A model generated the notes under the pieces. That model was not told where the DNA came from. It did no database searches and saw only the letters and a program-made list of their open reading frames with translations. From contig NZ_JH165054.1 of NCBI RefSeq assembly GCF_000227295.1, positions 460,628 to 524,627 of the forward strand: a stretch of DNA of 64,000 nucleotides, in the 5' to 3' direction. Below are positions 612 to 20,053 of the stretch, in pieces; position 1 is the stretch's first letter, and each line of letters begins with the position of its first letter. The stretch is from Cutibacterium avidum ATCC 25577 (GTDB lineage: Bacteria; Actinomycetota; Actinomycetes; Propionibacteriales; Propionibacteriaceae). A program made the translations under genes and the position numbers.

Positions 612-623
612 TTGTCATGACAT
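612..623. promoter_or_regulatory. Predicted IolR operator in front of iolC
   Basis: TTGTCATGACAT contains the perfect 10-bp palindrome TGTCATGACA (613-622). It overlaps a TATACT -10-like hexamer at 623-628, so a bound repressor would block polymerase. The same dyad recurs in front of other inositol genes in this window. It fits the motif KGWCHTRACA that I recall for the GntR-type regulator IolR of Corynebacterium glutamicum. Confidence 0.6.
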
Positions 624-670: not shown

Positions 671-1678
671 ATGACTGACACGACGATCACGCCTGAGGTC
701 ATCACGATGGGACGAATTGGCGTCGACCTTTACCCCCTCCAGACCGGCGTGGGACTGGAGGAAGTCACCTCATTCGGCAAATTTCTGGGCGGCAGCGCCA
801 CCAACGTCGCCGCCGCAGCGGCACGTCTCGGACACGGTTCTGTGGCCACCGTCACGGCCGTCGGCGACGACCCCTTCGGACGCTGGCTGCGCGCCGAGAT
901 GCAACGGCTCGGCGTCAGCGACCGGTACGTCGAGACCACCGACCAACTACAGACCCCGATCACCTTCTGCGAGATCTTCCCGCCGGACGATTTCCCGCTC
1001 TACTTCTACCGGCGCCCCACAGCTCCCGACCTCCAGTTGCGCCCCTATGACGTCCCGATGCGCGACATCGTCGACTCAAAGATCTTCTGGTTCACCGGCA
1101 CCGGCCTGTCGCAGGAACCAAGCTACTGGACGCACGCCGTATGCCTCGAGAACCGCGGGCGAAAGGACCACACGGTGTTCGACCTCGACTGGCGCGACAT
1201 GTTCTGGCGCGAGCGCCACATCGCCAGCGAGCGCTACGCCGAGGCCCTCAAGTACACCACCGTGGCCGTCGGCAACCGCGAGGAGTGCGAGGTCGCCGTC
1301 GGTGAGCGTGAGCCCGAGCGCGCCGCCGACGCCCTGCTTGAGCGCGGTGTCGAGGTCGCCATCGTCAAGCAGGGCCCCAAAGGCACCCTGGCCAAGACCA
1401 AGGACGAGCGCGTCGAGGTTCCGCCGACCAAGGCCGAAACCGTGAACGGCCTGGGCGCGGGCGACGCTTTCGGCGGTTCCATCGTCGACGGTCTGTTGCG
1501 CGGTCTGTCGCTGGACGAGATGATCCGGCGCGCGAGCGCGGCCGGCGCGATCGTGGCGTCCCGACTCGAGTGCTCGACGGCCATGCCTACCCCCGACGAG
1601 ATTGACCAGGTCGTCAAGGCAGGGCACACCGGCACCCTCGAGCAGAAGTTGCCCGCCAACACCACCATCAAGCGCTGA
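671..1678 (+). CDS. iolC: 5-dehydro-2-deoxygluconokinase (IolC), PfkB family
   Basis: This 335-aa ribokinase/PfkB-type kinase phosphorylates 5-dehydro-2-deoxy-D-gluconate with ATP, giving the substrate of the inositol-pathway aldolase. The N-terminal PfkB region has GKFLGGSATNVAAAAARLG (about residues 37-55). The C-terminal signature NGLGAGDAFGG (about 258-268) carries the catalytic Asp and anion hole. It is a stand-alone kinase without the aldolase domain that some proteobacterial IolC proteins carry. The start is the ATG after GGAGG at 657-661. A predicted IolR site lies 48 bases upstream of the start. It faces the iolE-like gene, with a GC-rich hairpin between the two stops. Confidence 0.93.
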   Translation: MTDTTITPEVITMGRIGVDLYPLQTGVGLEEVTSFGKFLGGSATNVAAAAARLGHGSVATVTAVGDDPFGRWLRAEMQRLGVSDRYVETTDQLQTPITFCEIFPPDDFPLYFYRRPTAPDLQLRPYDVPMRDIVDSKIFWFTGTGLSQEPSYWTHAVCLENRGRKDHTVFDLDWRDMFWRERHIASERYAEALKYTTVAVGNREECEVAVGEREPERAADALLERGVEVAIVKQGPKGTLAKTKDERVEVPPTKAETVNGLGAGDAFGGSIVDGLLRGLSLDEMIRRASAAGAIVASRLECSTAMPTPDEIDQVVKAGHTGTLEQKLPANTTIKR

Positions 1679-1796: not shown

Positions 1797-2657
1797 TCAG
1801 GCCAGCGCCGAGAGCGCCTCGAGGGACGCCTTGGCGTTGTCGACGGGGCCACCACCAGCCGGAGGCTCCTCGTCAATCATGATGTCCTGCTCGAGGACGT
1901 AGTAACCGTCGAAGCCGGCCTCATTCAGGGTCTTGACGATCGTGGCGAAGTCGATGTCGCCCTGGCCGATCGGGGTGAACATTCCAGCCTTGATGCCCTC
2001 GCTCCAAGTGATCTCGCCCGGTAGCAGCTTGTCGGTCAGTTCCTTGCGGATGTCCTTGGCATGGACAATGTCGACGCGGTCGGCGTACGTCTTGACCAGT
2101 TCGACGACATCGGCGCCACCGCACGCGATATGGCCCGTGTCGAGGCAAAGACCCACGGTCGAGTTATCGAGCACGCGCTCAATCTCGTCCGCGTTCTGCA
2201 CCATGGTGCCCCAGTGCGGGTGCAGACAGGCAGTCACACCGCGCTTCTGGCAAACCTCACGAATGCGGGTCAGGTTGTTGAAGAGCGTCTCCCAACCCTT
2301 CTCGTCCAGGACGGGGCGGGCGTCGTAGCCTTCCCGGCCAGAGTCGGCGGCCAGGATGAGGAACTCTCCCCCGGCAGCCTCGAACGCGTCGAGCTCCTTG
2401 TTGACCATGGGGATCGGGTCGAAGTCCGGGTCGTGCATGACCGCGAGGAAGAAGGCGCCAACAGGCTTGAGCCCGTACTTGCCGACGACCTGCGCGCGCT
2501 CGGCGGCGTCGACGGGCAGCCAGCCCTGGGGGCCGAACTCGGTGGCGGTCAGACCGATCTGCTTCATCTCGGTGAGCACGCGCTCGGGGCTCATCTGGTA
2601 GCCCCAGTTCGGGACCTCACATACGCCCCAACTGATGGGGGCTCCTGCAATCTTCAT
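1797..2657 (-). CDS. iolE: Inosose dehydratase-like TIM barrel protein (IolE candidate)
   Basis: This 286-aa xylose-isomerase-like TIM barrel of the sugar-phosphate isomerase/epimerase superfamily probably dehydrates scyllo-inosose to the dione used by IolD. Features that fit IolE are HPHWGTMVQ and CLDTGH (metal and substrate ligands), VHAKDIRKE, and the C-terminal block KAGMFTPIGQGDIDF followed by YYVLEQD. The start is the ATG at 2657, preceded by AAGGGAGAAA; an open frame further upstream has no ribosome-binding site. It lies downstream of iolA on the same strand with 187 bases between. Of the three TIM barrels in this island it is the closest to IolE. The paralog at 10198-11145 is the alternative. 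Confidence 0.7.
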   Translation of the reverse strand: MKIAGAPISWGVCEVPNWGYQMSPERVLTEMKQIGLTATEFGPQGWLPVDAAERAQVVGKYGLKPVGAFFLAVMHDPDFDPIPMVNKELDAFEAAGGEFLILAADSGREGYDARPVLDEKGWETLFNNLTRIREVCQKRGVTACLHPHWGTMVQNADEIERVLDNSTVGLCLDTGHIACGGADVVELVKTYADRVDIVHAKDIRKELTDKLLPGEITWSEGIKAGMFTPIGQGDIDFATIVKTLNEAGFDGYYVLEQDIMIDEEPPAGGGPVDNAKASLEALSALA

Positions 2658-2751
2658 TGTTTTCTCCCTTGATGTAACGGGTACTTCGTGACTCCGACCT
2701 CCGTGGAGTCTGGTGGTCTTTTGATCGGCGCGACGAATGAGCCGCGTCACA

Positions 2752-2797
2752 GGCGGTCGAGGGCCCGGCTCCCTCGAAACCGGGCTCACGGACCGCC
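2752..2797 (-). terminator. Hairpin downstream of iolA
   Basis: Outer arms GGCGGTC (2752-2758) and GACCGCC (2791-2797) enclose an inner stem GCCCGG/CCGGGC. It sits 48 bases after the iolA stop and before the next minus-strand gene. There is no T-run, so it may attenuate rather than stop transcription. Confidence 0.4.
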
Positions 2798-2844
2798 ACG
2801 TTGATGGCGAACGGACGCGTGACGACCCTGGGGCCGTCAGTGGG

Positions 2845-4344
2845 TCACTCCTCGCGCTTGAACGACATCGACGCCGCGTAGGCGCCCGACTCGGACGGCC
2901 AGCGGGTGGTGATCGCCTTGGCGCGGGTGTTGAACAGGACGCCTTCCGGACCGTGGATGTGGAGGTCGCCAAGCAGCGAGCCCTTCCAGCCACCGAACGA
3001 GTAGTACGCGACGGGCGTCGGAATCGGGACGTTGACGCCGACCATGCCTGCCTCGACGTCGATCGTGAAGCGACGGGCCATGCCGCCGTCGTTGGTGAAG
3101 ATCGCGGCGCCGTTGCCGAAGGGCGACGAGTTCACGATCTCGATGGCCTCCTCGTAGGTGTCGGCGTGGACGATGGCCAGTGCCGGGCCGAAGATCTCCT
3201 CCTTGTAGAAGTCGGAGTCGAGGGGCACGTCGTCGACGACGGTCGGGCCAACCCAGAAGCCGTCCTCGTAGCCGTCCACCTTGTAGTTGCGGCCATCGAG
3301 GACGACCTTCGCGCCGCGCTTCTCGACGTCGTCGACCAGGCTGAAGATGCGCTGCTGAGCACTCTTGGAGATCACGGGACCCATCTCGACACCCTCGTCG
3401 AGGCCCATGCCGACCTTGATTTTCTCGCCACGAGCCTTGACCAGCTCGGCGAGCTTCGGGCCGACGCCGCCCACGGCAACGACGACAGGCAGAGCCATGC
3501 AGCGCTCACCGGCGGCACCGAAGGCGGCCGCAGCGATGTGCTGGGATGCGAAGTCGAGGTCGGCGTCGGGCATGACGATGGCGTGGTTATTCGCCCCACC
3601 GAGGGCCTGGACTCGCTTGCCGGTGCGGGTCGCGCCCTCCTGGACGACGCGGGCGACCGGGGTGGAGCCGACGAAGCTGATGCCGTCGATACCGGGGTGC
3701 TCCAGGATGCCGCTCACGAGGTCGCGGTTGCCGCCGAGGACGTTGAAGACGCCATCCGGCAGGCCGGCCTCCTTGTAAAGGCGGGCGATGATGATTGAGG
3801 CGGTCGGCGTCGGGCTGGCCGACTTGAGGATGAACGCATTGCCGGTGGCAATCGCGATGGGGTGCATCCACATGGGCACCATGACCGGGAAGTTGAAGGG
3901 GCAGATACCCGCGACGACGCCGAGTGGCTGGCGCATGGTGTGGATGTCAACGCCGCTCGAGACGTCGGTGGAGATCTGGCCCTTGAGTGCAGTGTTGATG
4001 CCGCAGGCGAAGTCGAGGGTCTCGCGTCCGCGCTGGATCTCACCGATCGCGTCGTTGAAGTCCTTGCCGTGCTCGGCGACGATGCTCTTGGCGATCTCGT
4101 CCTGATGGGCGAGCACCAGTTCGCGCATCTTGAACATGATGGCGGTGCGCTTGGCGAGTGAGAACTTGGCCCACTCCTTCTGGGCCTCGCGGGCCACCTC
4201 GACGGCATGGTCGAGATCAGCCTGACTGGCGGCCAGGAGCTCGCTCTCGACCTTGCCCGTTGCAGGGTTCTCGACGGGGATGCGCTTGGCGGGCGTTCCC
4301 TCGTAGGACTCGCCACCCACCCAGTGCATGATCGTGTTGGTCAT
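2845..4344 (-). CDS. iolA: CoA-acylating methylmalonate/malonate-semialdehyde dehydrogenase
   Basis: This 499-aa aldehyde dehydrogenase converts malonate semialdehyde (from inositol) or methylmalonate semialdehyde (from valine) to acetyl-CoA or propionyl-CoA, with NAD and CoA. Family marks are CPFNFPVMVPMWMHPIA, the Rossmann segment FVGSTPVA, and the catalytic Cys in GAAGERCMALP (about residue 285). It has the MmsA/IolA-type length and ends in the C-terminal FGGWKGS block. The start is the ATG at 4344 with AAGGGA upstream; the open frame runs 63 bases further but lacks a ribosome-binding site. A predicted IolR operator lies about 100 bases upstream, which ties it to inositol rather than valine use. 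Confidence 0.93.
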   Translation of the reverse strand: MTNTIMHWVGGESYEGTPAKRIPVENPATGKVESELLAASQADLDHAVEVAREAQKEWAKFSLAKRTAIMFKMRELVLAHQDEIAKSIVAEHGKDFNDAIGEIQRGRETLDFACGINTALKGQISTDVSSGVDIHTMRQPLGVVAGICPFNFPVMVPMWMHPIAIATGNAFILKSASPTPTASIIIARLYKEAGLPDGVFNVLGGNRDLVSGILEHPGIDGISFVGSTPVARVVQEGATRTGKRVQALGGANNHAIVMPDADLDFASQHIAAAAFGAAGERCMALPVVVAVGGVGPKLAELVKARGEKIKVGMGLDEGVEMGPVISKSAQQRIFSLVDDVEKRGAKVVLDGRNYKVDGYEDGFWVGPTVVDDVPLDSDFYKEEIFGPALAIVHADTYEEAIEIVNSSPFGNGAAIFTNDGGMARRFTIDVEAGMVGVNVPIPTPVAYYSFGGWKGSLLGDLHIHGPEGVLFNTRAKAITTRWPSESGAYAASMSFKREE

Positions 4345-4444
4345 CGGCTCGTTTCCCTTCCTGGTTGCCGGTTGGGACCTGGTGGCCCACGAACCGTCCT
4401 TCTTCATTGAAAGTCGCTCAGCTCACGACGTCTGCGTCATAGCT

Positions 4445-4456
4445 TTGTCTTGACAA
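4445..4456. promoter_or_regulatory. Predicted IolR operator in front of iolA
   Basis: TTGTCTTGACAA differs by one central base from the 612-623 and 15938-15949 sites and contains TGTCTTGACA. It lies 101 bases upstream of the iolA start on the minus strand. Confidence 0.6.
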
Positions 4457-9167: not shown

Positions 9168-10178
9168 TTAGGCGTAGAACCCGGGCTTGTCGATCATGGC
9201 AACCTCGACCTTCGGTCCGCTAGGGTCCTCGAGCGATGCCACTGCGGCATCAATCACGCATGCGGCGGCATAGCCATCCCAGCTGCTCGCACCGGTGTGC
9301 TCGCCCCTGGCAACCGCGTGGATCCACTCTTGGACCTCTTGGTTGAAAGCGTCGTGGAAGCGGTCGATATGCGAACCACAAATGGCGTTGCGGTTGCCGA
9401 ACTGGTCGCGCACGTGGATCTTCTCCTGATCGCCGAGACGAGCCGTGCCGGTCTCCATCACAAGTTCGCACTCGATCGAGTAGCCGAACCCGATATTGAC
9501 GTTGACCTCATCGTCGATGAGGACCCCCGACTCCGTGCGCATGACGACCACAATGGGATCGTTGAGGTGCTCAAAGCGCTTCGAGGTGAAACGCGGACGG
9601 TCGACGCGCGTCTCGACGATCTCCTCATCCAACAGCCACCGCATCGTGTCGATCTCATGGATCGCCGTGTCGTCAATGGCCATGCGCGAGGTGTAGGTCT
9701 TGGGCACCGAGGGGTTACGGTGCCGGTTGTGGACCAGCGTGGCGTAGCCGAGCTCGCCACCGACAAGCAACTCCTTCATCTTGTTGTAGCCCTTGTCGAA
9801 GCGGCGCATGAAGCCGACGGTGACGAGCTTCCTGCCCGCCGCCTGCTCGGCGTCCATGATCCGCAGGCAGCCTTCGGCGGTGGTGGCCAGCGGTTTCTCA
9901 CAAAGGACGTACTTGCCGGCCTGCACCGCAGGGATCACGGATTCCTCATGCACCTTTCCGAAGGTCGCGACGAGGACAGCGTCCACGTTAGGGTCGTCGA
10001 TGAGTTCTTTCCCGGTGGTATAGGCCTTGGCGCCGAGCGGCTCAGCAACGGCCTTGGCAGCGTCGAAATTGATATCGGCCACGGCACTCACTTGGGCGCC
10101 CGGGAGCTCATTGGCGATGCGGTCGACGTGCGCACGTCCCATGCCGCCTGCACCAATTAGTCCAATACGAACGGTCAT
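9168..10178 (-). CDS. iolG: myo-inositol 2-dehydrogenase (IolG)
   Basis: This 336-aa Gfo/Idh/MocA dehydrogenase oxidises myo-inositol to scyllo-inosose with NAD. The Rossmann motif is GLIGAGGMGRAH at the N-terminus. The catalytic Lys lies in CEKPLATT (about residue 94-101). VGFMRRFD and AIHEIDTMRWLL carry the substrate Asp/His pair. The protein ends KPGFYA, like corynebacterial IolG. The start is the ATG at 10178 with GGAAAGGACA upstream. It is 19 bases after the IolE-like gene, in the operon led by iolJ. A second inositol dehydrogenase of a different subtype is at 17301-18290. Confidence 0.9.
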   Translation of the reverse strand: MTVRIGLIGAGGMGRAHVDRIANELPGAQVSAVADINFDAAKAVAEPLGAKAYTTGKELIDDPNVDAVLVATFGKVHEESVIPAVQAGKYVLCEKPLATTAEGCLRIMDAEQAAGRKLVTVGFMRRFDKGYNKMKELLVGGELGYATLVHNRHRNPSVPKTYTSRMAIDDTAIHEIDTMRWLLDEEIVETRVDRPRFTSKRFEHLNDPIVVVMRTESGVLIDDEVNVNIGFGYSIECELVMETGTARLGDQEKIHVRDQFGNRNAICGSHIDRFHDAFNQEVQEWIHAVARGEHTGASSWDGYAAACVIDAAVASLEDPSGPKVEVAMIDKPGFYA

Positions 10179-10197
10179 GTCGCTGTCCTTTCCGTGC

Positions 10198-11145
10198 TCA
10201 GGCCTGCCCCAGGCCGAGGGATGCGAGATACTCGCGCATCTTGATGGCGTTCTGTTTGGGGAACGAATGGTCCTCGACCGGGTACATGTCCTGCTCACAG
10301 ATCACGTACAGAGGCTTATCGAGGTCAGCGAGGGCCTCGATAAATGTGTCCATGGGCGGCAGACCAGCCGGTGGGCGGACCGACGCTCCCTTGGCCACGG
10401 CCTCCCCGAACGGCCAGTCCTTCTCATGTGCCTCCTCGACGAGGGACTCGTCGAACGCCTTGATGTGGACGTAGCCGATACGCTCAGGGTACTTGCGGCA
10501 CAACTCGACAGGGTCTCCCCCTCCGTAGACGATATGGCCGGTGTCCAGGCAGAACGAGACGTATTCGGGGTCCGTGGCGTCGAAGATCCGCGCGATCTCA
10601 TCGGGGGTCTCGATGTGCGAGTCACCGTGCGGGTGCAGGACCATCGTCAGGCCGTAGTCCTCCTTCATCATTTTGCCCAACCGGTTGGCGTTGTTGACGT
10701 AGAGGTTCCACGCATCGGGCGACAGAACGCGGTCATCGGTGAACTCCCAAGTCTTGTCGTCGCGGTAGAGGGGCGGCAGGTGGACGATATACTCGGCACC
10801 GAGCGCGGCGTGCGTCTCACCAATGGCGCGGAATGTCTTCTCGGTATCGGCCCAAGCCTCCTCTTTGTGCAGGATGCCCCAGCCTGTGCCGGCCACGACA
10901 CGCATGCCACGCTCGTCGACCCAGCGCTGCAACTCCTTGGGATCCTTCGGGAAATAGCCGTATGGGCCGGTCTCGAGCACCTCAAAGCCGGCCTCGGCCA
11001 TCTCGCTCATCGCGACGTCGGGATCGATCTGTTTTGGATCATCGGGGAACCAGACGCCCCATTGGTCAGGGCACACGCCAATGGTGAGCTTGGAGTAGCG
11101 CGGGTTCTTAGTGTTGACGGACTTGTCTTTGTTGTCGAACGACAT
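10198..11145 (-). CDS. IolE-like TIM barrel protein (inosose dehydratase or isomerase paralog)
   Basis: This 315-aa sugar-phosphate isomerase/epimerase-fold protein has LTIGVCPDQWGVWFPDD at the N-terminus. Probable metal-ligand blocks are VLHPHGDSHIET, CLDTGHIVYGGGD and HIKAFDE, then ICEQDMYPV near the end. It is related to the protein at 1797-2657, sharing the CLDTGH and EQD cores, but lacks that protein's GMFTPIGQGDIDF block. It could be an inosose dehydratase for another inositol isomer or a 2-keto-inositol isomerase (IolI role). The start is the ATG at 11145 with GGAG upstream. It sits between iolD and iolG in the operon. Confidence 0.7.
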   Translation of the reverse strand: MSFDNKDKSVNTKNPRYSKLTIGVCPDQWGVWFPDDPKQIDPDVAMSEMAEAGFEVLETGPYGYFPKDPKELQRWVDERGMRVVAGTGWGILHKEEAWADTEKTFRAIGETHAALGAEYIVHLPPLYRDDKTWEFTDDRVLSPDAWNLYVNNANRLGKMMKEDYGLTMVLHPHGDSHIETPDEIARIFDATDPEYVSFCLDTGHIVYGGGDPVELCRKYPERIGYVHIKAFDESLVEEAHEKDWPFGEAVAKGASVRPPAGLPPMDTFIEALADLDKPLYVICEQDMYPVEDHSFPKQNAIKMREYLASLGLGQA

Positions 11146-11234
11146 CGGTGTCTTCTCCAATCCTTGCGGGCCGTATGCCTTCCGCGGCCGCGCGTGCCGC
11201 AGTGGGCCGTCCTGGCCCGCCCCGGCTTGTCTTG

Positions 11235-13142
11235 CTACAGGTAGTGCCGCTGTGGCTTGCGCGCCTCGACGTACTCGGCGTGTGCCTTCTGAGTGCTTTC
11301 GAGCGTCGACGTGCTGGCGACGACCACGTCCCACCAACTCGAGTTGGGCGGGTTCGGGCCCATCAGGTCGGTTTCGATGTGGATCATCGTGGCCCTGTCT
11401 GAGGCATGCGCCTTCTCGTAGGCTTGACGGAACTCGTCCATGCCGTGTGCCTCGATCACGTCAATGCCCAGACTACGGGCGTTGGCCGCGATGTCGACGC
11501 CGGGGATCGTCTTCTCGTCCTCGAGGTGGCTGCCCTGGCCGCGCTGGCGGAACGTGGTGCCAAAGCGCTGCGAACCGTGCGACTCGGACAGTGCGCCGAT
11601 CGACGCGAAACCGTAGTTCTGCAGCAAGACGTAGATGACCTTGATGCCCTCCTGAGCCACAGTCGCCAACTCCATCGGCAGCATCTGGTAGGTGCCGTCG
11701 CCCACGATCGCCACGACCTCGGACTCGGGACGGGCAAGTTTCACGCCGAGAGCAGCAGGAATCTCATAGCCCATGCAGCTGAACGCGTACTCGACGTGAT
11801 ACTGGATCGGATTCTTCGCCTGCCACAAGGCCTGCAGGTCACCCGGCATAGAACCGGCTGCGTTGATGACGATGTCCTCGTCCCCCATGAGCTCGTTCAG
11901 GGCCCCGAAGACCTCAGTCTGCGCGGGTAGCGGTCCGTGGTCGAGGTGGTAACACTGGCGGGTCTTCTCCGACCAGGACTCCTTCTCGGCCTTGATGCGC
12001 TCGCTGTACTCGGCGTCCACGTGGTAGCCGTCGAGCAGGGCGGTCAGGTCAGTGAGGGCCTCGCGGGCATCGGCGACCACCATGATCGCCGACTGCTTGG
12101 CCGCGTCGAAGCTGGTCACGTTAATGTTGACGAACTTGACGTCGGGGTTCTTGAACTGCGTCTTGGACGCCGTCGTGAAGTCGGAGTACCGCGTGCCGAC
12201 GCCGATGATCAGGTCGGCCTCGTCGGCCAGATGGTTGGCGGCGTCACAGCCCGTCGACCCCACCCCGCCAACTGCGCATTCGTGGTCGAAGTTGATGGCG
12301 CCCTTGCCGGCCTGGGTGTCCGAGACCGGGACTCCCGTGGCTGTGGCGAGGTCACGCAGCTGCTGTGAGGCCTCGGAGTAGATGGTGCCACCACCCGAGA
12401 CGATCAGCGGGCGCTTGGAGGCCCGGATCGCCTCGGCCGCACACTCCAGCGCTGCCCTTTCGGCCGGTGGGCGACGCACGTGCCAGACGCGCTTGTCGAA
12501 GAACTCGACGGGCCACGCGTGCACCTCAGCCTGCACGTCCTGCGGCATGGCGATCGTCACGGCACCGGTCTCGGCCGGATCAGTCAGAACACGCATGGCG
12601 TTGAGCAGCGACGGGATGAGCTGCTCGGGACGGTTGATGCGATCAAAGAACCGCGACACGGGGCGGAAGCAATCATTGACCGAGACATCGAGGGACCGGG
12701 GATCCTCGAGCTGCTGCAGCACCGGGTCCGGTACGCGGTTCGCAAAGATGTCGCTGGGGAACAGCAGGACCGGCACGCGGTTGGTGGTCGCGAGCGCCGC
12801 ACCTGTCACCATGTTGAGCGAGCCCGGACCGATGGAGGCGGTGCACATGTACGTCGACATGCGATTCATTGTCTTGGCGAACGCCGCGGCTGCATGCACC
12901 TGTCCCTGCTCGTTGCGGGGCATGATGTAGGGCATTTCGTTCTCGCCCTCGGCCGGATTGATCTCGTTTTGCAGCAGCGCCTGGCCAAGGCCGCAGACGT
13001 TGCCGTGGCCGAAGATGCCGAACGCCCCCGGAATCAGGCGGTGCTCGACACCGTCGCGCTCGGAGTATTGGTTCGACAGGAACCGGATGGTCGCCTGGGC
13101 GACGGTCAGTTCGACCGTCCCACGGTAAGCCTCATTGCTCAT
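11235..13142 (-). CDS. iolD: 3D-(3,5/4)-trihydroxycyclohexane-1,2-dione hydrolase (IolD)
   Basis: This 635-aa thiamine-diphosphate enzyme opens the ring of the trihydroxycyclohexanedione to 5-deoxyglucuronate. The N-terminal pyrimidine-binding domain carries FGIFGHGNVCGLGQAL. The C-terminal domain has the ThDP/Mg motif starting at VAIVGDGTYQMLP, with the Asn about 27 residues later in LLQNYGF. The length is normal for IolD. The start ATG lies 29 bases downstream of the iolB stop, with AGAGAG as a modest ribosome-binding site. This is the most diagnostic enzyme of the inositol pathway in the window. Confidence 0.95.
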   Translation of the reverse strand: MSNEAYRGTVELTVAQATIRFLSNQYSERDGVEHRLIPGAFGIFGHGNVCGLGQALLQNEINPAEGENEMPYIMPRNEQGQVHAAAAFAKTMNRMSTYMCTASIGPGSLNMVTGAALATTNRVPVLLFPSDIFANRVPDPVLQQLEDPRSLDVSVNDCFRPVSRFFDRINRPEQLIPSLLNAMRVLTDPAETGAVTIAMPQDVQAEVHAWPVEFFDKRVWHVRRPPAERAALECAAEAIRASKRPLIVSGGGTIYSEASQQLRDLATATGVPVSDTQAGKGAINFDHECAVGGVGSTGCDAANHLADEADLIIGVGTRYSDFTTASKTQFKNPDVKFVNINVTSFDAAKQSAIMVVADAREALTDLTALLDGYHVDAEYSERIKAEKESWSEKTRQCYHLDHGPLPAQTEVFGALNELMGDEDIVINAAGSMPGDLQALWQAKNPIQYHVEYAFSCMGYEIPAALGVKLARPESEVVAIVGDGTYQMLPMELATVAQEGIKVIYVLLQNYGFASIGALSESHGSQRFGTTFRQRGQGSHLEDEKTIPGVDIAANARSLGIDVIEAHGMDEFRQAYEKAHASDRATMIHIETDLMGPNPPNSSWWDVVVASTSTLESTQKAHAEYVEARKPQRHYL

Positions 13143-13171: not shown

Positions 13172-14041
13172 TCAGTGGGTCATGGGGAGCCGGGGGTCAA
13201 CCTCTTGCGACTCCCAGGTTTCGCGGATCCATGCGTGGTGCGGGTCGTCCACCGACTTCCAGGTCTGGTCCTCGGCGGGTCCGGCCATGACGTTGAGGTA
13301 GTACAGGTCGTATCCCGGGGCCGCGACGCAGGGGCCGTGCCAACCGTGCGGGACGAGCGCGACGTCACCATTACGCACCTCGGCCAGCAGGTCGATCGGA
13401 CGCTCCGGCGTCCCGTAGGTGCGGTGCAGTGCGAAACCGGGTCCGCCGGCCCCGTCGGTCACCTCGAAGTAGTAAATCTCCTCGAGTTCGCGCTCATTCT
13501 CGGAGTATTCCTCGTGCTTGTGAGGCGGATAGCTCGACCAGTTGCCGCCAGGTGTCAAGACTTCCGTGACGAGCAGGTGCGAGGTGGAGACGCCGTTGTT
13601 CAGCGCGTAGTTGTTCACCTGACGCGAGCAGTCGCCCGTGCCGCGCAGACTGACGTCGACGTGATCAGTGCCGTAGAAAGCGACGGGCAGGTCTGACGCC
13701 GCGATGGCGCCGGGGAGCGCGAAACGCCCGCCCTCTGCGGAGGAGATCTTCACGGTGGTGTGGCGCGGGATGTAGCAGAAGTCGCTGATCGCTTCGAACA
13801 CGCTGGGACGGCCCACGAGCTCTCGAGTCTGGCCGTCGACCTCGATGGTGCACCCGCCGTTCAGCGGCAGGACGAGAATCTCGTCATCGCCGGTGTCGTA
13901 GCTCAGCTCGCCGCCGGCGTCGAGTTTGACGACCTTGATGCTCGACCAGGTCCACCCAGCACGCTGCTGGGTGATGTCGACCTCGTACTGGTCGTGACCG
14001 GACTCACCGGCCGGGACGTAGATGTCAGGATTCGTGTTCAC
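13172..14041 (-). CDS. iolB: 5-deoxy-glucuronate isomerase (IolB)
   Basis: This 289-aa bicupin enzyme of the KduI/IolB family isomerises 5-deoxy-D-glucuronate to 5-dehydro-2-deoxy-D-gluconate, the IolC substrate. The second cupin shows PPHKHEEYSENERELEEIYY and VPHGWHGP, with the His and Glu metal ligands. The start is a GTG at 14041 that overlaps the TGA of the preceding aldolase gene (GTGA), so the two are translationally coupled. Confidence 0.95.
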   Translation of the reverse strand: MNTNPDIYVPAGESGHDQYEVDITQQRAGWTWSSIKVVKLDAGGELSYDTGDDEILVLPLNGGCTIEVDGQTRELVGRPSVFEAISDFCYIPRHTTVKISSAEGGRFALPGAIAASDLPVAFYGTDHVDVSLRGTGDCSRQVNNYALNNGVSTSHLLVTEVLTPGGNWSSYPPHKHEEYSENERELEEIYYFEVTDGAGGPGFALHRTYGTPERPIDLLAEVRNGDVALVPHGWHGPCVAAPGYDLYYLNVMAGPAEDQTWKSVDDPHHAWIRETWESQEVDPRLPMTH

Positions 14042-14937
14042 AGCAAGCCAACCGCCTCATCAACTACCGCCGCCACGTCGCCGGACGGCGGGAAAAGTAG
14101 GGATCTTCCGATGACCAGACCTCGCACATTGGGGATGGCCAGCGCACGCTGCCAGGAACCAAGGGCCGCATCGGCGTCCTTGTTCACCTCACCGCCGAGG
14201 ATCAGGGCCGGCATCGTCGTCGACGCCATCACGCGTTCCATGTCGTCGACGGCCGGAAGTTTGAGCCACGTGTGCGCCGACGTTCTTCCCAGCCCCGAGG
14301 CTATCGCAATGGCCTTGATGACGGCCTGGGGACTGAGGTCGTTGCGGATGCGGCCCTCCTGCCACTGCGAGATGAAGGGCTCGATCATGGCCATCACCTG
14401 ATGATCGGCCAACTCGTCGACCGCGTGGGCGCAGGCCTCCAACGTCGCGACGCTGCCCGGATCGTCGTAGTTGATGCGCAACAGTATCTTGCCGCCATCC
14501 AGGCCACTGTCGGCAATGCCTTGGGCGTCGTAGCCCGTGAAGCGGTCGTCCATCTCGAACTTGGCCCCCAGCAACCCGCCGCGGTTCATCGACCCGTATA
14601 CCAGCTTGCCGTCAAGGGCACCCAGTAGCGTCAGGTCCTCGATCATGTCGGCGGTGCCAAGGAACCCCGTGACGCCGGGACGGCCCAGCGCCTCGACGCA
14701 TCGCGCCAACAGTTCGCCCCGATCGGCCATGGCCAATTCGTCGGCGCCCGCTCCCAGCGCCCCGCGTGCCGGGTGGTCGCACGCGATGATCATGAGCTTC
14801 TCGTCCGATGTGGGCATCGCTCGTCGAGGACGAGTCGCCAAGGCTTCGCGGACCCGCTGCGGCTCATGCGAACGGATGTCCACCAGATCACTGATTGATG
14901 ACAACCCCACCGCCCCTTTGCTCGTTCCGTCGGCCAT
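14038..14937 (-). CDS. iolJ: Class I (DhnA/Cgl0158-type) aldolase, probable IolJ function
   Basis: This 299-aa TIM barrel resembles the DhnA/Cgl0158 class I aldolase family. It probably splits 6-phospho-5-dehydro-2-deoxygluconate into dihydroxyacetone phosphate and malonate semialdehyde. It has MIIACDHPARGALG near the N-terminus, WLKLPAVDD with the likely Schiff-base Lys, and ALILGGEVNKD, the phosphate-site strand. I place the start at the ATG 14937, because a good promoter (-10 at 14960-14965) would put the RNA start near 14953, inside the longer open frame. No clear ribosome-binding site is visible. It leads the operon and overlaps iolB by 4 bases. Confidence 0.75.
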   Translation of the reverse strand: MADGTSKGAVGLSSISDLVDIRSHEPQRVREALATRPRRAMPTSDEKLMIIACDHPARGALGAGADELAMADRGELLARCVEALGRPGVTGFLGTADMIEDLTLLGALDGKLVYGSMNRGGLLGAKFEMDDRFTGYDAQGIADSGLDGGKILLRINYDDPGSVATLEACAHAVDELADHQVMAMIEPFISQWQEGRIRNDLSPQAVIKAIAIASGLGRTSAHTWLKLPAVDDMERVMASTTMPALILGGEVNKDADAALGSWQRALAIPNVRGLVIGRSLLFPPSGDVAAVVDEAVGLL

Positions 14938-14959
14938 CGACGGATGTGTCGTTATCCAG

Positions 14960-14989
14960 ACAATACCGACGGCCATGCGGCGACGTCAA
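14960..14989 (-). promoter_or_regulatory. Promoter of the iolJ-iolB-iolD operon
   Basis: On the minus strand, TTGACG (rc of 14984-14989) and TATTGT (rc of 14960-14965) are 18 bases apart. The predicted IolR operator lies directly upstream at 14994-15005. Confidence 0.5.
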
Positions 14990-14993
14990 GGGA

Positions 14994-15005
14994 TTGTCTT
15001 AACAA
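14994..15005. promoter_or_regulatory. Predicted IolR operator between iolJ and the GntR gene
   Basis: TTGTCTTAACAA (core TGTCTTAACA) lies between the divergent operon and the regulator gene. It could control both, giving repression of iolJBD and autoregulation. It matches the other sites except for one base of the right arm. Confidence 0.6.
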
Positions 15006-15147
15006 AATGCGCGTCTTGCGCGCCGCGCCGCCAATTACCCTCGTCACGACGGCCAATGATGAATCCTCACCCGACAGGGGGCTACAGTTTCCCCGATACA
15101 ACGCTGCGACGACCGGCGCCGACGAACATGACGGGAGAAGGAAACCA

Positions 15148-15897
15148 ATGGACGACGAGGTCTATGCCCCCGAGATCATGCTCGATCGATCGAGCGCCGT
15201 CCCCCTGTATGAACAGATCGCGACGCCCATCGCGAAACTAATCTATTCCAAGGAGCTCGCCCCCGGCACTCGCATCGAGGACGAAGTGACGATGGCCAAG
15301 CGTCTGCAGGTCTCACGACCCACGGCCCGACAGGCGCTTCGCCGACTGGTCGACCAGGGACTCGTGGTCCGTCGGCGCGGCATCGGGACCCGCGTCGCCC
15401 CGGCCCTCATCCACCGCCCCATGGAACTGACGAGCCTCTTCGGCGACATCGAGAAGGGTGGTCACCGCGCCACCACCACCGTGCTCGACTACGGCGAACT
15501 CGAAGCGTCCCGCGAGGACGCAGAGCACCTGGGACTCGACGCGGCTGGTACTCCCGTCACATACATCCGACGGCTGCGCCTCGCCGACGGTGAGCCGATC
15601 GCCATCATGACCAACCTGATCCCACATGAACTGGCCCCCACTCGCGAGGAACTCGAGGCCGGCGGCCTTTACGAGGCGCTGCGCGAGCGGAACGTCCACC
15701 TGAACTCGGCGCGGCAGTCGATCGGCGCTCGGAATGCGACGACCGAGGAGGCGAATCTGCTCGGACTGAAGCGCGGTGCGTCGCTGCTCACCATGCAGCG
15801 GTGGACGATCGACCAGACAGGACGGGTGGTCGAGTACGGCAAGCACGCCTACCGCGCCGACCGCTACACCTTCGACTCAACCGTGTTCACACCCTGA
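15148..15897 (+). CDS. iolR: GntR/HutC-family regulator, IolR candidate
   Basis: This 249-aa transcription factor has an N-terminal winged helix (about residues 12-82: PLYEQIATPIAKLIYSKE, then the recognition segment VSRPTARQALRRLVDQGL). The C-terminal UTRA effector domain (about 95-240) carries YIRRLRLADGEPIAIM and the RSxGARxATxxEA-type block. The likely role is an inositol-responsive repressor. It sits divergently from iolJBD with a dyad between them, and the same dyad recurs in front of iolC, iolA and the transaldolase gene. The start is the ATG with GGGAGAAGG upstream. The effector (an inositol intermediate) is inferred. Confidence 0.85.
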   Translation: MDDEVYAPEIMLDRSSAVPLYEQIATPIAKLIYSKELAPGTRIEDEVTMAKRLQVSRPTARQALRRLVDQGLVVRRRGIGTRVAPALIHRPMELTSLFGDIEKGGHRATTTVLDYGELEASREDAEHLGLDAAGTPVTYIRRLRLADGEPIAIMTNLIPHELAPTREELEAGGLYEALRERNVHLNSARQSIGARNATTEEANLLGLKRGASLLTMQRWTIDQTGRVVEYGKHAYRADRYTFDSTVFTP

Positions 15898-16057: not shown

Positions 16058-17134
16058 ATGGTCATCGAATACACACCAGGGCCGCTGCTCGACGCGACTC
16101 GCCAGTTTCCCACCGTGCTGTGGAACGACTCGGCTGACCCGGACGAGCTTCGCCAGTCCATCTCTTTCGGCGCCGTCGGCGCCACATGTAACCCGACCAT
16201 CGCCTACACCTGCATCAAGCAGAAGAAGGACCGCTGGGCGGTCCGCATCAAGGAAATGGCCGAGGAGATGCCCGACTGCGGCGAGTCTGAGATCGGCTGG
16301 CGCGTCGTCCGCAAGTTGTCGGTCGAAGCCGCCAAGCAACTCGAACCGATCTTCGAGGAGCACAAAGGCCGCAACGGTCGCCTGAGCATCCAGACCGACC
16401 CGCGCCTCATCCGTAGCACCCAGGCGCTCGTCGACCAGGCTGTCGAGTTCTCGGAACTCGCCCCGAACATCATCGTCAAGGCTCCGGCCACCAAGGCTGG
16501 CATCGCCGCCATCGAAGAGGCCACCTACCGCGGCGTCTCGATGAACGTGACCGTGTCGTTCACCGTCCCGCAAGCCGTCACTGCCGCCGAGGCCATCGAG
16601 CGTGGCCTGAAGCGCCGCGAGGCCGAGGGCAAGGACGTCTCGACGATGGGCCCCGTCGTCACCCTCATGGCCGGCCGACTGGACGACTGGCTGAAGATCG
16701 TCGCCGATCGGGACCAGTTGTTCATCGACCCGGGTCATCTTGAATGGGCCGGAGTCGCCGCCCTGAAGCGCGCCTACCACGAGTTCCAGGAGCGCGGCCT
16801 GCGCGCCCGCCTGCTGCAGGCCGCCTTCCGCAACGTGCTGCATTGGTCCGAGGTGCAGGGTGCCGACATGGTCGTCTCGCCGCCCTTCAAGTGGCAGCAG
16901 CGCATCAACAACTCGGGTTACAAGCCCGTCAGCAAGATCGACGAGCCCGTCGATCCGAAGATCATGAAGACGCTGCAGTCAATCCCCGAGTTCGTCCGCG
17001 CCTACGAGCCGGACGGCATGACCATCGACGAGTTCGACACCTTCGGTGCCACTCTCCGCACGATCCGCGGCTTCCTCGACGCCGACAACGACCTGGACAA
17101 TCTGGTCCGCGACGTCATCACGCCTGCTCCCTGA
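16058..17134 (+). CDS. Transaldolase-family protein in the inositol island
   Basis: This 358-aa transaldolase-like class I aldolase has N-terminal TVLWNDSADPDELRQ and GAVGATCNPTIA, the family's D and CNP motifs. The strand NIIVKAPATKAG (about residues 145-156) carries the likely Schiff-base Lys, and MNVTVSF follows. It is longer than many transaldolases and diverges in the C-terminal third. A perfect predicted IolR operator covers its promoter, and it precedes idhA in the same direction. Transaldolase is not a textbook inositol enzyme. It may cleave a keto-sugar phosphate made from inositol isomers, or feed triose and hexose phosphates into the pentose pathway. GGAGGAG precedes the ATG. Confidence 0.75.
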   Translation: MVIEYTPGPLLDATRQFPTVLWNDSADPDELRQSISFGAVGATCNPTIAYTCIKQKKDRWAVRIKEMAEEMPDCGESEIGWRVVRKLSVEAAKQLEPIFEEHKGRNGRLSIQTDPRLIRSTQALVDQAVEFSELAPNIIVKAPATKAGIAAIEEATYRGVSMNVTVSFTVPQAVTAAEAIERGLKRREAEGKDVSTMGPVVTLMAGRLDDWLKIVADRDQLFIDPGHLEWAGVAALKRAYHEFQERGLRARLLQAAFRNVLHWSEVQGADMVVSPPFKWQQRINNSGYKPVSKIDEPVDPKIMKTLQSIPEFVRAYEPDGMTIDEFDTFGATLRTIRGFLDADNDLDNLVRDVITPAP

Positions 17135-17145
17135 TCGAGCGCCCA

Positions 17146-17181
17146 GGTTGGGGGCACTTTCGTCGCGATGGTGCCCCAACC
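17146..17181 (+). terminator. Hairpin after the transaldolase-like gene
   Basis: GGTTGGGGGCAC and GTGCCCCAACC pair with one bulged G. It lies 12 bases after the stop, has no T-run, and may be leaky toward idhA. Confidence 0.4.
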
Positions 17182-17300
17182 GTCTGATCAGCCATCCGCG
17201 TCATTCCGACCCGCCCGTCGGGAGCGGCCCACCGCGGGTCGCCTAACCGAGAACGCGGATCACGCACTCTTCATCCACGAATAAAAAGGAACCACCCAAG

Positions 17301-18290
17301 ATGCTCAAGATTGCCGTCATCGGTGCCGGCCGCATCGGTCACGTCCACGCCCGCTCCGTCGCGGCGCATCCCGACGCCGAGCTCGTCCTCGCCAGCGATC
17401 CCTTCGGCGACGCTGCCGAGAACCTGGCCAAAGAGTACGGCGCGCGCTTCACCAAGGACGCCGACGAGGTCTTCGCCGATCCCGACGTCGACGCCGTCAT
17501 CATTGGCTCGCCCACCGACCTTCACCTGGGCCAGCTCATCGCCGCCGCCAAGGCGGGCAAGGCCGTCCTGTGCGAGAAGCCGATCGCGCTCGAGGTCGCC
17601 AAGGTCGACCAGGTGCAGGCCGAACTCGACAAGATCAACACCCCGGTTATGTTCGGCTTCAACCGCCGCTTCGACCCCTCGTTCGCCGCTGCGGTGGACG
17701 CCGCCAAGTCCGGCAAGATCGGCACGGTCGAGCAGGTCACGATCATCAGCCGCGATCCCGCTGCTCCCCCGGCCCAGTACCTCACAGGGTCAGGCGGCAT
17801 CTTCTGCGACATGACGATCCACGACTTCGACATGGCCCGCCACATCTTGGGAGACGTCGTCGAGGTGAGCGCCTTCGGCCAGAACTTCAACGCCGACATC
17901 AAGGCTATCGGCGACTTCGATGCCGCCGTGATCGTGCTGCGTTCCTCGACTGGCGCGATCGCCACCATCACCAACGACCGCGCATGCGCGCCGGGCTATG
18001 ACCAGCGCCTCGAGATCCACGGCACGAGCGGCTCGGTGAGCATCGACAACGTTCGCCCCACCACGCTACGTCTCAACAACTCCGAGGTCACCGCGGCCCA
18101 GCAGCCGTACCTCGACTTCTTCCTCGAGCGTTACGCGGACGCGTACAGCCGCGAGCTGTCGGCATTCATCAAGGCCGTCTCCACGGGTGAGAAGCCGAAT
18201 CCCGGCATCGAGGACGCCGTCGCGGCCCTGCGACTGGCCGACGCCGCCACCGTGTCGGCCCACGAGGGCCACGCGGTGAGCCTCGTGTAG
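17301..18290 (+). CDS. idhA: Inositol 2-dehydrogenase (IdhA subtype)
   Basis: This 329-aa Gfo/Idh/MocA dehydrogenase oxidises an inositol to inosose with NAD. The N-terminal Rossmann motif is VIGAGRIGHVHA. CEKPIALE holds the catalytic Lys, and GFNRRFDP follows. GGIFCDMTIHDFDMARHILG carries the Asp/His active-site pair and closely resembles rhizobial IdhA. It differs clearly from IolG at 9168-10178, so the two may handle different isomers, such as myo- and scyllo- or D-chiro-inositol. The start is the ATG with AAAAAGGAACC upstream. It is the last gene of the island and is followed by a strong terminator. Confidence 0.9.
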   Translation: MLKIAVIGAGRIGHVHARSVAAHPDAELVLASDPFGDAAENLAKEYGARFTKDADEVFADPDVDAVIIGSPTDLHLGQLIAAAKAGKAVLCEKPIALEVAKVDQVQAELDKINTPVMFGFNRRFDPSFAAAVDAAKSGKIGTVEQVTIISRDPAAPPAQYLTGSGGIFCDMTIHDFDMARHILGDVVEVSAFGQNFNADIKAIGDFDAAVIVLRSSTGAIATITNDRACAPGYDQRLEIHGTSGSVSIDNVRPTTLRLNNSEVTAAQQPYLDFFLERYADAYSRELSAFIKAVSTGEKPNPGIEDAVAALRLADAATVSAHEGHAVSLV

Positions 18291-18347: not shown

Positions 18348-18689
18348 CGTCCCCTTCTTTCTTCGTCTCTAGGCGTCGGTGACGTCTCCGTGCGTCGATG
18401 ATCTCGTCGCTCGAGGGTGCTCGCCCACCACCCCTGACCCACCAACGGGTGGTAATCCCGAAAACACATACACGAGCTGCCACCTGGAGTGGCAGGCTCA
18501 TTCAGACTTTTCGATATGTGCACGGGACTCACGAATCTCGGCGAGGCGACCCCCTCCACGGCTAAATTTCAACAGGGCCGAAACCGTAACTAACGGCCCA
18601 CCAGCCACGAAACGGCATGTCGATTGACCGACAGATCCGCTCGGTATCGTCTCGTAGTGCATTGTCCGCCACCGGAAGGGGCTGCCACG
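18348..18689. other. 342-base intergenic region before the MFS gene
   Basis: It is AT-richer than its surroundings. The only structure seen is a small hairpin near 18474-18500 (GAGCTGCCAC with GTGGCAGGCTC). A TATCGT -10-like hexamer about 40 bases before the ATG at 18690 has a TTGACC upstream, at shorter than ideal spacing. I see no gene. Confidence 0.4.
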
Positions 18690-20053
18690 ATGGCCGCCAA
18701 CACGCTGCCCACCAGTTCGATGCCCAATACTGAGATAGCGTCAACACGCATCTCCCCGGAATCCAGACGCTTCCTGCGCCATGTCACCGCTGCCACGGCG
18801 TTCGGAGGCGGACTCGACATCACGACCTCGGTATCATCAGCGTCGTCATCCTGCACATCAATCATGACCTGGGTCTCTCCCCCGCAATGGAAGGTCTGGT
18901 CGGCGCCGCAAGCCTGCTCGGTATTTTCATCGGCGCTCCACTCTTCGGCTACCTCACCGACAAGTTCGGCCGCCAGAAGATGTTCATGGTCGACATCATT
19001 TCCTTCATCGTCATTGGTGTCGCCCAGGCCTTCGTCACCGGCGGGGTGTCCCTGGCCATCCTCCGATTCCTGCTGGGCATGGCCATCGGCGCCGAATACT
19101 CGATCGGTGCCCCGATGCTGTCGGAATTCGCCCCGGCCCGGGAGCGTGGATCGAAGCTGGCCTTCCTTGAGTTGTGTTGGCGTATCGGTTTCCTCATCGC
19201 TGTTCTGCTGGGCTACGCGCTGTTGTGGCTCGGGGTCTCGTGGAAGTGGATCCTGGCGACCTCGGCGATTCCTGCTCTCGTCGTGTTGGGCCTGCGGATC
19301 GGTCTGCCAGAATCCCCACGCTGGCTGCTTCGTCACGGCCGTGAGGCCGAGGCTCGTGAGATCGTCGAGAAACACATGGGTCCGGAGTTCTTCGAGGCCG
19401 AGGAGTTCGCCGCGGAGTCGATCGGCGAGGACGGGTACCGCAAGCTCTTCCGCAAGGGTCAGCTGCGACGCACCGTCTTCGTCTGCATCTTCTGGACGTG
19501 CATCGTCACCCCGTACTTCGCCATCTTCACCTACGCCCCGAAGGTGCTGGAGTCCCTCAATGTGAAGTCCCAGGCGACCGGCACGATCCTCTCGAACACC
19601 GTCGGCGCGGTCGGTGCCCTCATCGGCCTGCTGGCCATCGACCGGATCGGTCGCCGCCGCATGCTCATTGGCCCGTTCTGGGTACAAATGGTGGTCCTGC
19701 TGGTCGTCGGCCTGTGGACGAACGCGCCGTCGTGGGTGCTGGTGCTCGGTCTGGCGGTCTTTGCCCTGGTCAACTCCTACAGTGACATCCTCACCGCCGT
19801 GTACCCGTCAGAGATCTTCGACACCGACATTCGCTCCAGCGGCGTCGGACTCGGGTCGGCGATGAGCCGTATCGGCGCCTTCCTCGGCACCTACCTGCTG
19901 CCCATCGGCATGGGGACGATCGGCATCAAGTGGTGCATGGTCATTGCGGCAGGATTGTGTGTCATTGGCGCGGTGACGGGCCAATTCATGGCCCCGGAGA
20001 CCATGAACCGCTCCCTCACCAGGACGTCCACCGGCGAGCTCATGGACACCTGA
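18690..20053 (+). pseudogene. Sugar-type MFS transporter with a one-base frameshift near codon 44
   Basis: The N-terminal 40-odd codons (ATG 18690 with GGAAGG upstream: MAANTLPTSSMPNTE...FGGGLDI) are in one frame. From about 18824 the homologous protein continues in the next frame as DLGIISVVILHINHDLGLSPAMEGL and onward to 20053. Joining them at 18821-18824 restores the FGGGLDI-x-DLGIISVV helix-1 block, so one base is missing. The rest keeps MFS features: LTDKFGRQK, RFLLGMAIGAEYSIGAP, LPESPRWLLRHG, DRIGRRRM and PSEIFDTDIRSSG. The intact protein would have about 454 aa. From the ATG at 18887 only 388 aa without helix 1 could be made. It is either a pseudogene or a sequencing error; the base is not in a homopolymer. 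Confidence 0.75.

Follow-up and report, generated by a model that had tools for sequence, protein, structure and literature searches.

A transaldolase-family enzyme of the inositol island of Cutibacterium avidum and its relatives: a candidate for a kinase-free branch at 5-dehydro-2-deoxygluconate

For bacteria of the soil, the gut and other environments, the inositol of phytate represents an important source of carbon. In the genome of Cutibacterium avidum ATCC 25577, inositol genes surround a gene coding for a protein of the transaldolase family, referred to below as P0001, and the question arises which reaction such an enzyme could perform in this company. The window analysed consists of a stretch of 64,000 nucleotides, the relevant features of which are collected in Table 1.

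Table 1. Predicted features of the inositol island and of the transaldolase-family locus (positions refer to the 64,000-nucleotide window).
Feature	Position	Strand	Remarks
Operator-like site before iolC	612..623		1 mismatch to TTGTCATGACAA
iolC, 5-dehydro-2-deoxygluconokinase	671..1678	+	TIGR04382, 347.1 bits (cut-off 300)
Second iolE-like gene	1797..2993	-	TIGR04379, 166.4 bits, below cut-off 290
iolA-type aldehyde dehydrogenase	2845..4407	-	PF00171, 440.2 bits
Operator-like site before iolA-type gene	4445..4456		1 mismatch to TTGTCATGACAA
iolG-like dehydrogenase, chiro-inositol type	9168..10298	-	NF052679, 373.7 bits, below cut-off 540
iolE-like inosose dehydratase	10198..11337	-	TIGR04379, 139 bits, below cut-off 290
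iolD	11235..13142	-	TIGR04377, 869.6 bits (cut-off 715)
iolB	13172..14041	-	TIGR04378, 297 bits (cut-off 205)
Cgl0159-type aldolase, presumed DKG-phosphate aldolase	14038..14976	-	PF22649, 412.9 bits
GntR/HutC-type regulator, IolR candidate	14944..15897	+	family match to residues ~80-314 only
Operator-like site at aldolase/GntR divergence	14994..15005		2 mismatches to TTGTCATGACAA
Perfect palindrome TTGTCATGACAA	15938..15949		predicted operator of GntR-type regulator, before transaldolase gene
TAL_FSA gene (protein P0001)	16058..17134	+	358-aa ORF; Pfam TAL_FSA match
GC-rich hairpin, transaldolase gene/idhA gap	17135..17205	+	z -1.3 (weak)
idhA/iolG, inositol 2-dehydrogenase	17301..18290	+	TIGR04380, 380.6 bits (cut-off 355)
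MFS sugar-porter gene	18390..20053	+	ORF at 18887..20053

The initial annotation had placed a transaldolase-family gene inside an inositol island, and the family searches agree: a purine-rich ribosome site occurs immediately 5' of the ATG, P0001 scores 127.1 bits against Pfam TAL_FSA (PF00923, cut-off 27), and iol genes lie around it. None of the NCBIfam transaldolase models reaches its cut-off on P0001: the best equivalog, TIGR00876, gives 80.8 bits against 233.75, below the score of a housekeeping enzyme, TIGR00874 gives 55.1 bits against 396.2, the fructose-6-phosphate aldolase (FSA) model TIGR00875 gives 41.9 bits against 245.95, and the best subfamily model gives 116.1 bits against 367. 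The identity amounts to 23-28% with ordinary actinobacterial transaldolases and 26% with TalB from Escherichia coli. The predicted structure (pLDDT 97.3) consists of a whole-length transaldolase barrel, with 7bbw as best structural match (VIA Z 39.5, rmsd 2.0 over 320 residues) and a Z of 38.4 with the transaldolase from Corynebacterium glutamicum (3r5e). In the phylogenetic tree, the inositol-linked enzymes form one side of a branch with 100% support (SH-aLRT), three ordinary rows serving as outgroup. Owing to this separation and to the fixed active-site changes described below, P0001 is assigned on its sequence to a distinct clade and is not simply the housekeeping copy of the enzyme.

The neighbouring genes had also been said to include an IolJ-type aldolase; an aldolase is indeed present but belongs to the Cgl0159 type (PF22649). 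Similarly, the transaldolase gene had been described as running into idhA: it does lie upstream of idhA on the same strand, but a gap of 166 bases separates the two genes and contains a GC-rich hairpin, which a terminator scan did not pick up. The MFS sugar-porter gene located after idhA looks frameshifted, with its N-terminal part in another frame upstream of the ORF, and is either broken or mis-sequenced. With respect to its relatives, P0001 is 71-72% identical to the enzymes of its own genus and 75-79% identical to those of Actinomyces and some other Propionibacteriaceae (L039, L041, L057 and L058 were compared), and its neighbours in the tree are Actinomyces and other Propionibacteriaceae sequences rather than those of its own genus. 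Since P0001 is closer to these groups than to its own genus, the inositol island of the window may have moved horizontally.

The palindrome TTGTCATGACAA, which had been singled out as the most perfect IolR-type palindrome of the set, deserves this description, as its single perfect copy within the 64 kb window is found about 110 bases 5' of the transaldolase start. Four copies with up to two mismatches occur in the window, all of them at inositol genes; shuffled windows are expected to contain 1.34 such copies, and 3 of 100 shuffles reach four. The degenerate motif KGWCHTRACA, which we take to be the regulator motif of C. glutamicum IolR, was not found as a string among the open-licence PMC literature matches listed. 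Of 79 related loci, 25 have it at most 300 bases 5' of the transaldolase gene, where random windows drawn from these loci give a mean of 1.7; many of the 25 come from close Actinomyces. The exact operator motif is missing upstream in the other 54. A GntR homologue accompanies the gene in 62 of 80 related loci (the best 80 of 251 relatives). The true start of the GntR regulator of the window is probably located further in than the annotated one, since the family match covers only part of the frame. The transaldolase gene would probably be under the control of the same regulator as the kinase/aldolase branch.

Linkage to the inositol genes was assessed in a family sample of 198 genomes, in which many assemblies are incomplete and single absences accordingly weigh little, and by a contig scan that yielded 251 relatives, the best 80 of which were kept as loci. 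The inositol-type transaldolase is carried by 77 of the 198 family genomes, and IolD, detected in 96 family genomes (94 over cut-off and 2 with partial matches), occurs in 75 of these 77 carriers. The two carriers without IolD over cut-off are G173, with a divergent enzyme, and G193, a genome that is 71% complete. Among the best 80 of the 251 relatives, iolB, iolC, iolD or the aldolase gene is found in the fetched flanks of 70 loci, some contigs being short, and an ORF-based count, in which iolE and idhA are also considered, brings the linked loci to 76. Together, iolC, iolB and iolD occur in 62 of these 80 loci, 13 of which have no aldolase gene in the locus; in none of the 80 does the aldolase occur without iolC. 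Frequent downstream neighbours of the transaldolase gene are idhA and iolE or, immediately adjacent, iolD. These associations support the view that the gene is part of the inositol system, in which it is spread over the Actinomycetaceae, the Propionibacteriaceae and other actinobacteria; C. porci (L057, G001) and C. modestum (L058, G006) are among the carriers.

A few records call for separate comment. The enzymes of L053 (labelled Xylanimonas) and L078 (labelled Tissierella) are nested within Schaalia and Varibaculum relatives, and both records are probably mislabelled or contaminated. An apparent fusion of the transaldolase with IolD (a 975-aa frame in L103) was rejected, since the two genes are read in different frames whose overlap only mimics a fusion. 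The divergent relative of G173 (L123:1427-6900; 43% identity) shares the same core active-site signature and is surrounded by genes for a TIM-barrel isomerase-like protein, a 3-hydroxyacyl-CoA-type dehydrogenase and an alcohol dehydrogenase-like protein; this cluster possibly belongs to another sugar-acid pathway.

The active site was compared in a clade alignment of 95 rows (94 loci and the window, comprising 92 distinct sequences) with that of 6 ordinary transaldolases. The equivalences presume the residue numbering of TalB, and the pairing of Asp24 with Asp17 relies on the motif, the alignment offsetting the TalB Asp by a gap. The predicted active-site residues of P0001 are Lys141, responsible for the Schiff base, Asp24, Asn45, Gln112, Asn163, Thr165, Thr202, Met204, Arg207 and Arg258. 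The counterparts of Lys132, Asp17, Asn35, Asn154, Thr156 and Arg181 of TalB (residues 141, 24, 45, 163, 165 and 207 of P0001, respectively) are kept in all 95 clade rows. At other positions the two groups of enzymes differ consistently: Glu96, Ser176 and Phe178 of TalB are replaced in P0001 by Gln112, Thr202 and Met204, and the residue preceding the Asp17 equivalent is Asn23. These four residues occur in 95 of 95 clade rows, in place of the Glu, Ser, Phe and Leu found in 6 of 6 ordinary enzymes.

In this respect, P0001 shares one feature of FSA and is devoid of another. At the column of Glu96, presumably the position of Gln59 in FSA, it carries the FSA-type glutamine; at the column of Phe178, which we equate with Tyr131 of FSA, it has Met204, so that the FSA-type tyrosine is absent. 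To our knowledge, the Glu96-to-Gln change in full-length transaldolases is known only from engineered forms. Such forms of TalB exist in the Protein Data Bank, with 4rz5 titled E96Q and 4rz6 titled E96Q F178Y. According to an excerpt of PMC13259622, the catalytic water of FSA is held with the help of Gln59, and exchanges of residues within this network convert aldolase into transaldolase and vice versa. The change to Gln112 is one employed to steer a transaldolase towards aldolase activity, but with Met204 the Tyr131 of FSA is lacking, so that P0001 may work either in an aldolase or in a transfer mode.

Could P0001 be an ordinary transaldolase that was simply recruited to the inositol regulon and feeds the pentose-phosphate pathway during growth on inositol? 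The Schiff-base residues are kept, and P0001 is the only TAL_FSA gene of its genome, which is 100% complete. A further TAL-family match is moreover rarer in carriers (37 of 77) than in non-carriers (81 of 121; odds 0.46, P 0.011, uncorrected for relatedness), the 37 being a per-genome count in which the further match of G067 may represent a fragment of the gene already counted. This difference leaves room for a dual role in the inositol and pentose-phosphate pathways, lineage being a confounding factor. In addition, four genomes of the group f29 (G264, G348, G378, G388), to which G246, G281 and G308 described below also belong, possess the transaldolase, the kinase and the aldolase together, and the transaldolase gene lies away from the inositol genes in the three neighbourhoods examined (L141-L143). 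In these small genomes, the enzyme is encoded beside TauE and BacA in L141 (G388) and beside a peroxidase in L142 (G264), and the 19 kb read with the kinase-aldolase-iolB cluster of G264 and G388 show no IolD.

Other observations nevertheless make this explanation unlikely. Nearly half of the carriers, the 37 just mentioned, do have a further TAL-family match. Within the genus, 4 of 8 other genomes are devoid of any match to the transaldolase alignment, and these are all four of the non-carriers, so that the transaldolase function appears dispensable there. The low identity to ordinary enzymes and the fixed changes at Glu96, Ser176 and Phe178 point in the same direction, and the inositol operons without kinase and aldolase described below would be left unexplained. 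In the initial annotation, ordinary transaldolase kinetics together with the absence of any other transaldolase gene were to mark P0001 as the housekeeping copy; the genome indeed has no other TAL_FSA gene, but the status of housekeeping enzyme does not follow, in view of the further matches in other carriers, the absences in the same genus and the altered active site.

The distribution of the kinase and the aldolase bears on the substrate. IolC was scored as present in 87 genomes over cut-off and in 5 with split or contig-edge matches, and two genomes with remnants of PF22649 only were counted as devoid of the aldolase. Among the 96 IolD-positive family genomes, 41 have the transaldolase, the kinase and the aldolase, 30 the transaldolase and the kinase, 4 the transaldolase with neither of the others, 18 the kinase and the aldolase, 2 the kinase alone, and 1 none of the three; an aldolase without IolC occurs in 0 of the 96. 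Unlike the transaldolase, the aldolase is thus bound to the kinase in its distribution. The intact Cgl0159-type aldolase is missing from 34 of the 75 IolD-positive carriers, and the enzyme tree requires at least 8 switches between presence and absence of the aldolase, presence being mostly scored by locus and not by whole genome. In C. modestum (L124, G006), the aldolase is reduced to a 48-residue match beside iolC, with just 364 bases between the iolC and iolB frames, and in G116 (L125) to a 37-residue match beside iolC; both genomes have a complete transaldolase gene. The four carriers with neither kinase nor aldolase (G098, G144, G176, G179) are 80-95% complete and, except for G144, in many contigs.

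Outside the family, a class sample of 197 genomes contains the enzyme at E 1e-40 in 11, the genome of the window included. Three of these outside genomes (G246, G281, G308), each a single contig of about 1.35 Mb and 99% complete, have an operon of the order iolA-iolB-iolD-iolE-TAL-Gfo/Idh-idhA (L144, L145, L153), which holds homologues of the other enzyme steps, with the transaldolase among them. Their best matches to the kinase model reach 96, 86 and 70 bits, respectively, corresponding to distant PfkB proteins, against a cut-off of 300, and no PF22649 match was found in any of the three. Searches for kinase and aldolase covered 13 genomes, G144, G176 and G179 having been preselected for missing IolC; neither IolC nor PF22649 exceeds its cut-off in G340, G144, G176 and G179. 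Seven genomes thus appear without both, three of which belong to one genus, the other four, with completeness values of 80-98%, being incomplete or fragmented into many contigs. The kinase-less genomes hold other PfkB kinases, which could phosphorylate 5-dehydro-2-deoxygluconate (DKG).

Two further candidates were considered and set aside. DUF2090, the aldolase fused to IolC, as a hidden aldolase matches 4 of 198 family genomes, none of them with both transaldolase and IolD: G124, G127 and G133 are IolD-positive members of the genus g18 without the transaldolase, and G021 scores 30.5 bits (cut-off 27) and has no IolD over cut-off. The dihydroxyacetone kinase domain Dak1, which would be required after a release of free dihydroxyacetone and might therefore tell release from transfer, occurs in 49 of 57 genomes tested and gave a mixed result: among the seven genomes without kinase and aldolase it is absent from three, which weakly favours transfer there, and present in four, and it is also absent from all four f29 genomes that have the kinase, its absence following lineage.

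Since inositol operons keep the transaldolase while kinase and aldolase are not found, we consider it rather probable that P0001 is a Schiff-base enzyme acting on unphosphorylated DKG in a kinase-free branch of the inositol pathway. The C5 ketone of DKG, the product of IolB, would be bound by Lys141 as a Schiff base, and the C3-C4 bond would be cleaved, yielding malonate semialdehyde for the IolA-type dehydrogenase. The dihydroxyacetone bound to the lysine would be transferred to a sugar phosphate, e.g., to glyceraldehyde 3-phosphate with formation of fructose 6-phosphate, or be released free. Both IolC and the DKG-phosphate aldolase would be bypassed, and where both are present, as in the genome of the window, this would constitute a parallel branch. 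In this scheme substrate and acceptor are inferred. The configuration of DKG at C3/C4 is that of C4/C3 of fructose, which corresponds to the stereochemistry of the transaldolase family; viewed from C6, which is free, DKG is a ketose whose cleaved bond has the same configuration as in fructose, and a carboxylate takes the place of the phosphate end of fructose 6-phosphate. The compared carriers with and without the kinase show the same four signature residues, which suggests one substrate for all of them, and the DKG reading is extended to P0001 on this suggestive ground. What speaks against it is that 30 IolD-positive carriers have IolC but no intact aldolase, so that DKG-phosphate is still made there.

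The same 30 genomes, together with the two carriers in which an intact kinase gene stands next to a mere remnant of the aldolase, would fit a second DKG-phosphate aldolase that replaces the Cgl0159-type enzyme on the product of IolC. This alternative is quite improbable. At least 7 carriers are devoid of IolC over cut-off, and the same signature is found in the seven rows of such carriers that were compared, six chosen by family or class, and G144 (rows L120, L121, L122, L144, L145, L146, L153). Substrates of the transaldolase family are normally ketoses whose C1 hydroxyl is free, and DKG-phosphate has its phosphate at this very place. A class II fructose-bisphosphate aldolase, which by analogy with IolJ could cleave DKG-phosphate, could also serve the aldolase-less genomes. 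The original suggestion of a second route for the DKG-phosphate step is therefore retained in part: P0001 belongs to the inositol system, most likely on an undescribed route around this step, but the IolC-less carriers argue against DKG-phosphate as its substrate.

Least probable of all is an action elsewhere in the inositol system, on an inosose, a dione or the sugar acid of another isomer; the enzyme might then be a dehydratase or epimerase that works through a Schiff base. Such an action would agree with the frequent position of the gene ahead of idhA and iolE or of iolD, with the G173 relative, which has the same signature and whose neighbours are an isomerase-like TIM barrel and a pair of dehydrogenases, in a genome without IolD over cut-off, and with the lack of both proton-shuttle residues (Glu96 of transaldolase, Tyr131 of FSA). 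In the three kinase-less operons, however, IolE and IolG homologues are present, and the empty slots are those of the kinase and the aldolase. The earlier idea that the enzyme acts on an inositol isomer is likewise abandoned, the genomes without IolC pointing to unphosphorylated DKG instead.

Returning to unphosphorylated DKG as substrate, a more specific proposal is advanced tentatively, its chances being put somewhat below even: natural full-length transaldolases with the Glu96-to-Gln change would convert DKG and glyceraldehyde 3-phosphate into malonate semialdehyde and fructose 6-phosphate, and would provide the sole route in some small genomes. A precedent is offered by sulfofructose transaldolase, which, according to an excerpt of PMC8397734, performs the same reaction with a sulfonate. 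By analogy, the proposed pathway would be the carboxylate counterpart of the sulfofructose transaldolase pathway.

Compared with known systems, P0001 shares the whole-length fold of the bacterial transaldolases of EC 2.2.1.2 (C. glutamicum 3r5e, Neisseria gonorrhoeae 3clm, E. coli TalB 1onr), but its clade differs from them at Glu96, Ser176, Phe178 and many clade-specific positions, and resides in inositol clusters. With FSA and the E96Q variants of TalB it has in common the glutamine at the Glu96/Gln59 position; unlike FSA, it has a methionine where Tyr131 stands and consists of 358 instead of about 220 residues. A short FSA-like decamer, with another substrate and from another gene cluster, displays the same fold (Z about 22) with 21% identity over about 200 residues. 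Relative to the branch made of IolC and the Cgl0159-type aldolase, P0001 would fill the same gap from IolB to IolA in the same islands, but with a different fold, the phosphorylated intermediate being a feature of that branch.

No description of an inositol-linked transaldolase was found in the titles and abstract openings of the open-licence PMC literature among the matches listed, and the word transaldolase does not appear in a large inositol survey (PMC9430895). In an excerpt of a proteomic study of Propionibacterium freudenreichii in soymilk (PMC7736159), IolC, IolD and IolG1 are up, and a 'transaldolase 1' is listed; the accession given there for the latter is far from the iol accessions, and it was taken to be another protein, so that the study has no bearing on P0001.

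If the proposed function is true, genomes scored as inositol-negative for missing iolC or the aldolase would need rescoring, and a class of genes annotated as 'transaldolase' would receive a different function. The clade would then also represent a natural example of a transaldolase active site reshaped for a carboxylate substrate.
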